From Pontibacter sp. G13 (GTDB lineage: Bacteria; Bacteroidota; Bacteroidia; J057), in contig NZ_CP134696.1 of the NCBI RefSeq assembly GCF_031851795.1, forward strand, positions 5,952,001-6,016,000: a stretch of 64,000 bases of DNA. The letters run 5' to 3'. Below are positions 2,383-63,484 of the stretch, piece after piece. Both the position numbers and the translations under genes were made by a program. The notes under the pieces were generated by a model, which had not been told where the DNA came from, ran no database searches, and saw only the letters and a program-made list of their open reading frames with translations. Each line of letters opens with the position of its first letter. The stretch's first letter is position 1.

Positions 2383-2403
2383 GTTGTGCGGCTGGCTGGT
2401 GTG

Positions 2404-2603
2404 GCGTGAGTGGGCGAAATGGCGCGCCCCGAGGCGCGGTCCGAGGGAGAAAGTTTCCTCTCAGGGCTTGATTCCTGATTTGAACTTGCAGGAGGTCTGC
2501 AAGCATAAAGGCCGAGGACGGAGCGTAGCGAACCCATGAAGCACGCGACCCCGCGACCGATCAGTCCAGTGAGGAACGATTGCCCGACCGCGGGGGCACG
2601 CCC
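2404..2603 (-). repeat. Modular structured repeat element, copy D
   Basis: Read on the minus strand it begins GGGCGTGCCC and ends CTCACGCC, with a CCCCGCG/CGCGGGG stem (plus positions 2589-2595 and 2549-2555) near its 5' end. A second stem, CGCGCC-CCGA-GGCGCG (2423-2438), lies near its 3' end. The same CCGA-loop stem in the copy at 27.5 kb has a T-A pair where this one has G-C, so the structure is kept while the sequence changes. It fills most of the gap between two genes (2286-2682), in which I see no coding sequence. Confidence 0.7.
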
Positions 2604-10017: not shown

Positions 10018-10236
10018 GGGTGTGTCCCGGCGTGCTTGGCAACATGGATGTGGCTTTACAGACTGGTCGCCGGGTCAGGCCCTTACGTGCTCGCTGGTCG
10101 CTCGGTCGGTGAGCATTGGGTTCCTGCATGGCAGGAATCTGCCTCAAGGATTGTGAAAGTACGCAATCCAATTGGGTGAGCATTCACCGACTGAACACTT
10201 CAGACCCTTCACACCGCACCTGCCAGCCGCACATTG
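10018..10236 (+). repeat. Modular structured repeat element, copy A
   Basis: It begins GGGTGTGTCCCGGCG; CCCGGCG (10026-10032) pairs with CGCCGGG (10068-10074). A conserved block GGGTCAGGC..CGTGCTCGCTGGTCGCTCGGTCGG follows. The variable section is closed by GTCGGTGA (10105-10112) with TCACCGAC (10184-10191). It holds two further hairpins, TTCCTGC/GCAGGAA (10121-10137) and GGATTG/CAATCC (10148-10169), so it can fold as a multi-branch junction. It ends with CCCTTCACACCGC..GCCAGCCGCAC, shared in variant form with copies B and C. No coding sequence is apparent. Confidence 0.75.
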
Positions 10237-27378: not shown

Positions 27379-27531
27379 GTTTGTGCGGGCTTGAATAATT
27401 TAAAGAATGATAAAGTACGATCAATTTAATATATGGGCTTCACATCTCCTACTGACAACCGAGTAGTTCCAGACCTGCATGGGGCAGGTCCACACTCGAT
27501 GGACTCGCCTCGTTCTATCTCGACAGGCACC

Positions 27532-27712
27532 GCGTGAGGGATCGGAGTGGCGCTCCCCGAGGAGCGGTCCGAGGGAAAAGATATGCCTGTTGGGTGGTCC
27601 ATTTTGGGTGGAGACATACCTTGTCAAGTCCACTTCCCACCGAGGACGGGAGCGTCAGCGGACCCACGGAAAAGCCCGACCCCGGATCAGCGCAGCATCC
27701 GGGGGCACGCCC
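27532..27712 (-). repeat. Modular structured repeat element, copy E
   Basis: On the minus strand it reads GGGCGTGCCCCCGGAT..ATCCGGGGTCGGGC at the 5' end (CCCCGGAT 27680-27687 pairs with ATCCGGGG 27697-27704) and ends GATCCCTCACGC. The CCGA-loop stem CGCTCC-CCGA-GGAGCG (27551-27566) matches copy D with a T-A for G-C swap. It occupies the middle of the gap 27379-27764, in which no gene is seen; nearby minus-strand sequence before 27765 may carry the end of the DUF481 transcript. Confidence 0.7.
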
Positions 27713-52856: not shown

Positions 52857-53072
52857 AATGTAGCGATGGCCTGCCGCGGCGTAAGGGAGCTGCAGGAGTA
52901 GTCGGTGGAGGCCAACTCATGGGTTAGGCAAAATGAGAGAATTGAATATCTCATGAATGCCGGGGTTGTGCATCCTCCCACCGACCGAGCGACCAGCGAG
53001 TCCGGAAGCGCCCGACCCGGCGGCATTTCTTGTCAGGCAGGAACCCCATGCCAAGACGCCGGGATACGCCCC
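52857..53072 (-). repeat. Modular structured repeat element, copy B
   Basis: On the minus strand it starts GGGCGTATCCCGGCG (53072 on) with CGCCGGG at 53057-53063 (plus) pairing with CCCGGCG at 53016-53022. The block CGCCGGGTCGGGC..GACTCGCTGGTCGCTCGGTCGG follows. The variable section is closed by GTCGGTGGAGG (52901-52911) with CCTCCCACCGAC (52974-52985), enclosing ATGAGA/TCTCAT (52933-52954). It ends CCCTTACGCCGCGGCAGGCC. It sits just downstream of the GT4 gene stop (53094). Confidence 0.7.
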
Positions 53073-63293: not shown

Positions 63294-63484
63294 GGGCGTG
63301 TCCCGGCGGCTTGGCATGAGATCTCCGTTTGACATTCGATCCGCCGGGTCAGGCTCCTACGTGCTCGCTGTCGCTCGGTCTGGAATCTGGAGGCGAGATA
63401 TCGCCGCCTCCAGATTCCAGACTCCGCCTAAGGGCGGCCACTTCGGAGCCTTCACGCCGCCGCAGGCCATCCGCACGTTTCATG
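63294..63484 (+). repeat. Modular structured repeat element, copy C
   Basis: It begins GGGCGTGTCCCGGCGG; CCCGGCGG (63302-63309) pairs with CCGCCGGG (63341-63348). The block GGGTCAGGCTCCTACGTGCTCGCT..CGCTCGGTC follows. The variable section here is one perfect 17-bp hairpin (63379-63395 with 63405-63421, 9-nt loop). The 3' end reads GCCTTCACGCCGCCGCAGGCCATCCGCAC. It lies 26 nt after the second plsC stop, where the hairpin could also end its transcript. Confidence 0.75.

Follow-up and report, generated by a model that had tools for sequence, protein, structure and literature searches.

A dispersed intergenic element of Pontibacter sp. G13 with a three-way-junction fold under selection and its apparent kinship to Rfam Flavo-1

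Flavo-1 and other described systems

The core of Flavo-1 (Rfam RF01705), counted as an sRNA family since 2010, has been known as an RNA candidate without function (PMC2864571), and in one survey it was among the most abundant sRNA families (PMC9029176). In F. psychrophilum many of its matches are untranscribed, and with respect to transcripts the matches fall 'indistinctly' on the sense or the antisense strand (PMC9723704). The element described here resembles Flavo-1 and, in part, some DNA systems. REP, BIME and REPIN sequences with their RAYT are likewise high-copy, intergenic, palindromic, near gene ends and arranged in inverted close pairs, but our element is several times longer, shows no common GTAG/CGTC-type foot and has no RAYT linkage. 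Integron attC sites also conserve the shape of one strand and leave most of the sequence free; unlike them, the element has no fixed R''/R' core (GTGA/TCAC swaps for GTTA/TAAC), and no integrase or cassettes were seen. An attC site proper (RYYYAAC ... GTTRRRY) was rejected when the ends were read, where the boxes instead alternate between GCGTGA/TCACGC and GCGTTA/TAACGC. Frpo/ssi (Frpo model: PMC11541004), like the copies on several but not all Bacteroides plasmid types, is a structured single-strand site upstream of leading-region-type genes with the folded strand as template, whereas the element has hundreds of chromosomal copies.

The element came to light in a window of 64,000 nucleotides (the whole stretch analysed: GCF_031851795.1, contig NZ_CP134696.1, positions 5,952,001 to 6,016,000 of the forward strand). 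The initial annotation placed elements of the form GGGCGT..GGTCGGGC..CCCTNACGC in other Bacteroidota too, and correctly so: a search with its pattern, GGGCGTN{10,40}GGGTCGGGC, retrieved such copies, here called type i, from one Flavo-1-rich family and related families. Left unnamed there, they do have a name: the core of these foreign copies is Flavo-1 (cmscan E down to 2.5e-11), and Flavobacteriaceae copies of the same architecture reach the Rfam gathering cut-off. A second foreign form, type ii (AGGAGC..CCCGC..TCGGGGCT), is the one described by Rfam's consensus. Flavo-1 matches occur in 37 of 247 Bacteroidota genomes; in one genus, which we take to be Flavobacterium, every genome has at least 18 copies. 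The 247-genome scan reported no match in the Pontibacter genome; the Rfam scan at the cut-off (42 bits) gave none in the window, and a search up to E=5 gave none on the loci with copies C, D and E.

The two groups are bridged by covariance models. Model R1, built from 18 foreign type-i copies with Pontibacter copies excluded, has 19 full-length matches at E<0.01 in 464 kb of the Pontibacter genome, among them copy B and copy E, the latter with exactly the ends first annotated; it also matches in 12 of 40 relatives, with 33 matches in one of them (G275), where the ends, delimited from 20 copies, are GCGT...ACGCCC with A-rich sequence beyond. Model R2, built from 22 Pontibacter copies including copy C, also matches compact copies in family- and order-level relatives. 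By sequence alone the Pontibacter copies are not Flavo-1 under Rfam's rule; judged by this model bridging they are of the same superfamily. The element is thus a larger, divergent member of a family that Rfam knows by its core, Flavo-1. Type-i copies share with RF01705 the strand and the core GCGTNAGGGAT..P4..AGCCCGACCC, to which the full element adds the outer stem P1 and hairpin P2, giving a three-way junction; Pontibacter copies have a tail, a 14-nt insert and one more hairpin besides. Members of the family occur throughout Bacteroidota, and outliers were met on plasmids of Bacillota. The type-1 core pattern itself gave scattered single matches in other species, mostly outside Bacteroidota. 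Compared with the Flavo-1 core already known as an RNA candidate, new here are the full three-way-junction element with its boundaries, the strand evidence, two subtypes in the Pontibacter genome with roughly one copy every 10 kb, the copies on plasmids and in another phylum, and a placement that argues against an sRNA gene; no description of the element as a DNA repeat was found in the literature searched.

The five copies of the window and the anatomy of the fold

All five copies first annotated in the window are matched by R2 as one family, and a common skeleton runs through their MAFFT alignment. Copies A, B and C are of type 1; copies D and E form type 2, which was revealed by the search with copy E. 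Canonical type 1 is represented by copy C (63294..63476, folding strand −; R2 E=8.3e-36, with copy C in the training set of the model). Its outer stem pairs 63295-63300 with 63453-63458, its second stem 63302-63309 with 63341-63348 and its third 63351-63357 with 63445-63451; an 18-bp hairpin (63378-63395 with 63405-63422) and a tail (63459-63476) complete it, and its folding z-score is -5.4. The other two type-1 copies have a long variable insert. In copy A (10018..10232, −; R2 E=5.3e-17) the outer stem pairs 10019-10024 with 10210-10215, the second stem 10026-10032 with 10068-10074 and the inner arms 10105-10117 with 10178-10191; its tail is at 10222-10232. Copy B (52857..53071, +) is matched by R2 at 52860-53071 (E=1.5e-14) and by R1 at 52879-53071 (E=0.0026); its outer stem pairs 53065-53070 with 52878-52883, its second stem 53057-53063 with 53016-53022 and its inner arms 52978-52985 with 52901-52908. 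In type 2, the outer stem of copy D (2386..2603, +; R2 E=3.6e-12) pairs 2597-2602 with 2403-2408 and its second stem 2589-2595 with 2549-2555; the copy also has a TCGG-loop stem within 2423-2446, a tail at 2386-2396 and a GGAGGATTT-like flank at 2604-2612. Copy E (27532..27712, +) is without the 3' tail; R1 gives E=4.5e-5 at exactly these ends and R2 E=0.0017 at 27513-27712. Its outer stem pairs 27706-27710 with 27532-27536, its second stem 27697-27704 with 27680-27687, and the TCGG-loop stem lies at 27552-27565.

The first stem was said to exist in all five copies despite differing letters, and it does pair in each of them, as CCCGGCG/CGCCGGG, CCCCGCG/CGCGGGG or CCCCGGAT/ATCCGGGG. The same is true of the loop stem of D and E with its G-C to T-A swap (GCGCC..GGCGC against GCTCC..GGAGC, with a TCGG loop). 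Within the window the outer stem shows compensation as well, C and D having GGCGTG/CACGCC, A GGTGTG/CACACC and B GGCGTA/TACGCC. All five copies stand at the places annotated, but the element extends beyond CACGC, as most copies have a further tail, GCCGCmrGCCATCCGCAC; by this tail copy D starts at 2386. On the side opposite to the tail, about nine flanking bases (GGAGGATTT) ahead of GGGCG are also conserved. The intergenic position of all five stands, for four of them by codon-usage gene call; copy C lies at the end of the called region and is unclassified there.

In general the element is a non-coding, dispersed unit of about 160-240 bp. On the folding strand it forms a three-way junction of the outer stem P1, the side hairpin P2 and the long arm P3. 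P3 carries 3x3 G-N-A internal loops and ends in the terminal hairpin P4; P2 and P4 are free in sequence. A type-1 copy read along the folding strand begins with the tail GTGCGGATGGCCTGCGGC, P1 (GGCGTG), P3, a 3x3 internal loop and a short stem; hairpin P5, the 18-bp hairpin P4 and a 14-nt conserved stretch, CGAGCGNCAGCGAG, make up its middle, and it ends with the 3' arms that close the short stem and P3, then GA, P2 with its free loop, the 3' arm of P1 and the conserved AAATCCTCC flank. P3 of foreign copies consists of GGG, a conserved A-G mismatch, two pairs (the second freely AU, UA or GC) and G-N-A facing G-N-A.

Selection on the fold, copy number and placement

Selection on folding, proposed from the five copies, is strongly supported by covariation, strand asymmetry and folding energy. 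Across 22 type-1 copies 96.8% of 1010 helix cells are paired, and both sides have changed in 22 of 46 pairs, with all six helices contributing; controls in which one side was slid by 1-3 bases gave 35-46% pairing and 3-5 double-changed pairs. Double-changed cells number 112 in the Pontibacter copies versus 29 in shuffles, and 52 versus 21 in the foreign copies (n=18; score 0.266 versus 0.095). The P4 arms illustrate this: TCTGGAATC/GATTCCAGA, TCTGTGATC/GATCACAGA and TCTCGCATC/GATGCGAGA.

The strand first annotated turned out to be the wrong one. In the long hairpin, counted in 28 hairpins, mismatches on that strand number 17 A-C against zero G-T (binomial p=1.5e-5, with copies that are not independent), and on the complement the same mismatches become G-T/G-U pairs; a second count made there gave 19 G-T to 0 A-C. 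Owing to an A-C mismatch that is fixed in one subtype, the A2 wobble count says nothing on the strand. With DNA parameters the Flavo-1 strand folds better in 39 of 44 Pontibacter copies and 29 of 33 type-i copies. Folding energy agrees on the strand in the Pontibacter copies and two foreign sets, most clearly with DNA parameters. Mismatch asymmetry and folding energy thus indicate that selection sees the complement strand, which is the one Rfam modelled: the fold is under selection on that strand.

Five copies is far below the size of the family, which amounts to about one copy per 10.5 kb. An nhmmer census gave 44 copies in 464 kb of the Pontibacter genome, split 19 to 25 between the strands, that is about 95 per Mb and, by extrapolation, about 700 per genome if the density is uniform. 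The covariance-model search proposed in the initial annotation, carried out with R2, finds many further copies. As R2 matched all 150 candidates scored genome-wide, i.e. every candidate given, 150 is a floor. Copy C as a query gave at least 46 matches (45 besides itself) in the 7.67-Mb genome, with 226 first-look candidates, 40 of them scored.

By codon-usage gene calls, 42 of 43 classified copies lie between genes and one overlaps a predicted gene. The gaps that hold them are convergent in 21 of 42 cases and divergent in one, versus 50 and 57 background gaps (Fisher p=1e-5). Of the copies in co-directional gaps, 7 have the folding strand as mRNA sense and 13 have it as template, a difference not significant alone. 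By hand count, 28 of 41 copies turn the GGGCG end toward the nearer gene end (p about 0.03), and read-through RNA accordingly tends to carry the non-folding strand. Close pairs are tail-to-tail in 8 of 8 cases. No replication-strand bias was found (32:33 and 39:45), taking as origin a point near 3.5 Mb that was guessed from the sparse GC skew. Copies avoid divergent promoter regions and follow neither the transcript strand nor the replication strand.

At some sites the element is orthologous. In the genus taken to be Flavobacterium it is present after one stop codon in four genomes (G206, G334, G358 and G356) with compensating arms (for example GACCC/GGGTC to GGCCC/GGGCC), and in five other species the same site is occupied by unrelated sequence, 33-38 bp long. 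Two more sites, judged by the start of the next gene to be upstream of lepA-like and rbfA-like genes, keep the element, and there the P4 hairpin is exchanged between species. Presence and absence together with P4 exchange indicate that copies are gained or lost, sometimes block-swapped, and kept folded. Between species, then, orthologous copies are retained while their arms change in compensation, and their persistence at fixed sites points to a site function rather than a purely selfish element. Among Flavobacterium-group species we also observed an orthologous element with a long side hairpin and compensating arm differences (L146 10809-10922 and L264-L266).

Competing explanations

We lean towards a non-autonomous DNA element, recognised by its fold when single-stranded and spread and maintained as DNA. 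Its folding strand would become single-stranded and then fold; a putative trans-acting protein would read the shape of the fold and a few bases, and might copy, move or convert the element, the step from fold to copying being a proposal. This reading is preferred because of copy number, independence of transcript strand (here and in F. psychrophilum), cross-phylum plasmids and block replacement. The initial annotation had offered either a mobile non-autonomous element or a repeated small RNA; the evidence leans to the DNA element, but mobility is not proven. The proteins encoded near 104 copies form no shared family, and neither a transposase partner nor an autonomous copy was found. The outer 6-bp stem is present, but the sites compared showed neither a target duplication nor a clean empty site. 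In Flavobacterium species, whole-region BLAST of filled and empty sites showed presence and absence and swapped hairpins, with junctions blurred by intergenic divergence and too diverged to show a target-site duplication of the kind first suggested as a check. Other points against a DNA element are that Y1 transposases carry other repeats, that orthologous copies persist at fixed sites with compensation, and that G-U tolerance and G-N-A loops are also expected of RNA.

Tentatively, Flavo-1 itself may be an element of the single-stranded DNA level, read by putative phylum-wide machinery, with hundreds of chromosomal copies and a presence on plasmids of another phylum; within this tentative reading the machinery may be a new kind of ssDNA transposition, or the element an ssDNA priming or promoter signal. 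If it is a DNA element, a curated sRNA family would have to be re-filed as a dispersed folded DNA element, and genome annotations would err in listing every copy as an sRNA gene. If it is mobile, machinery that recognises ssDNA would be at work across Bacteroidota; if it is an ssDNA signal, it bears on how Bacteroides plasmids establish. The full anatomy makes the question testable, as there are many copies per genome, present and absent sites, and near-minimal 77-nt plasmid copies.

The main rival is a structured RNA, as filed by Rfam, in which the transcribed folding strand is an sRNA or a mobile 5'/3' untranslated-region module. It owes this rank to the G-U tolerance and purine loops, which suit an RNA well; the strand-specific fold, G-U pairs and conserved mismatch are also typical of RNA, the Rfam class of Flavo-1 is sRNA, and copies are retained at orthologous sites. 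We nevertheless hold it to be unlikely. Hundreds of copies and plasmid carriage are unlike an sRNA gene, the folding strand is more often antisense than sense in the co-directional contexts counted above, the F. psychrophilum transcriptome has no consistent transcript link (PMC9723704), and in several plasmid copies the strand that folds is the template of the following gene.

These plasmid copies bear on another reading, an ssDNA priming or transcription signal for the entry of conjugative plasmids, analogous to Frpo/ssi on F and to single-strand origins, with the chromosomal copies as spread relatives. Bacteroides plasmids carry near-minimal versions of 76-82 nt. On several distinct backbones the next gene is of the ArdC, JAB or PcfK type, lies about 270-950 bp downstream and points away, and the folding strand is its template strand; ArdC, PcfK and JAB genes are leading-region genes. 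This agreement in gene type, direction and template-strand fold favours such a signal, but it has exceptions: one copy lies near a LuxR gene (L214), one near IS942 (L270), and those on Paraclostridium bifermentans (Bacillota) plasmids are in the other orientation. The latter (L268 2499-2584 and L269 2499-2584) have the fold (E=3e-10 and 2e-7) with P1 altered to GAGTT/AACTC. Chromosomal copies, moreover, lie at gene 3' ends and have no replication-strand bias. A signal of this kind appears improbable. No empty plasmid site was found, phage records gave no match, and viral contigs gave 14 and 3 short matches. In five Bacteroides plasmid loci (L213, L215, L209, L216 and L272) a CCCACC..TAAGGTA motif (CAAGGTA in L272) follows within about 30 bp of the element, together with further inverted repeats; a possible oriT or leading-region module may lie there.

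A REP-like repeat processed by a RAYT (TnpA-REP) or an IS200/IS605 transposase would account for high copy number, intergenic position, palindromic form and the tail-to-tail pairs, and the Pontibacter genome has a RAYT and an IS200-like Y1 gene. Both genes, however, are flanked by other repeats. The co-occurrence with a RAYT or other transposase that had been proposed as a check was looked for in this genome and at 40 foreign Y1 loci, and no RAYT/Y1 link was found: few of the foreign Y1/RAYT neighbourhoods have the element in reach, and the two close ones have their own repeats. The first Y1 test covered mainly IS200-type genes and was repeated on 20 RAYT-type loci, where one R1 match lies about 170 bp from a RAYT ORF with its own repeats and another more than 1.5 kb from the gene. 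Four genomes (G218, G202, G084 and G138) have at least 18 Flavo-1 matches each and no Y1 match, and replication-strand bias is absent. This makes a REP-like origin very improbable; on present evidence, from the Pontibacter and 40 foreign Y1 loci, a RAYT or IS200 transposase is rejected as mobiliser.

Least credible is that no selection acts and covariation is a mutational by-product of template switching in replication, which corrects imperfect palindromes: long P2 and P4 hairpins are the kind of arms so corrected, but covariation is also seen in P1 and the 2-bp P3 helix, bracketing most of the element beside conserved mismatches, symmetric correction does not yield the 17:0 strand asymmetry, and in type ii the GGG/CCC arm is replaced by CGGG/CCCG or CAGG/CCTG with the mismatch kept, a variation of arms around a constant mismatch that argues against such correction as the sole cause.

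The loci around Y1 genes have repeats of other kinds. In L062 (G000:C1:5488564 region) the gene at 1258-1803 on the minus strand encodes a RAYT of the NHIH...YIHQNP type, and a long palindromic repeat peculiar to it, GCGGACTTCCGGACCGTG..GGCCTGCCGCG.AGTCCGCG, lies on its flanks; gene and repeat fit the 'atypical' Bacteroidetes subclass 2.6 (PMC6006769). In L061 (G000:C1:1435526 region) many GTCAGGGAATGAAATTCCCTGCC-type and GGGTTTCCAACCCT-type repeats surround the IS200-like Y1 gene. Tandem matches to Rfam Acido-Lenti-1 (RF01687) occur beside a Y1 transposase gene in another genome (L189 2190-2367) and, below the cut-off, in the Pontibacter genome (L012 1750-2501); the Acido-Lenti-1 sRNA family may also be a DNA repeat.
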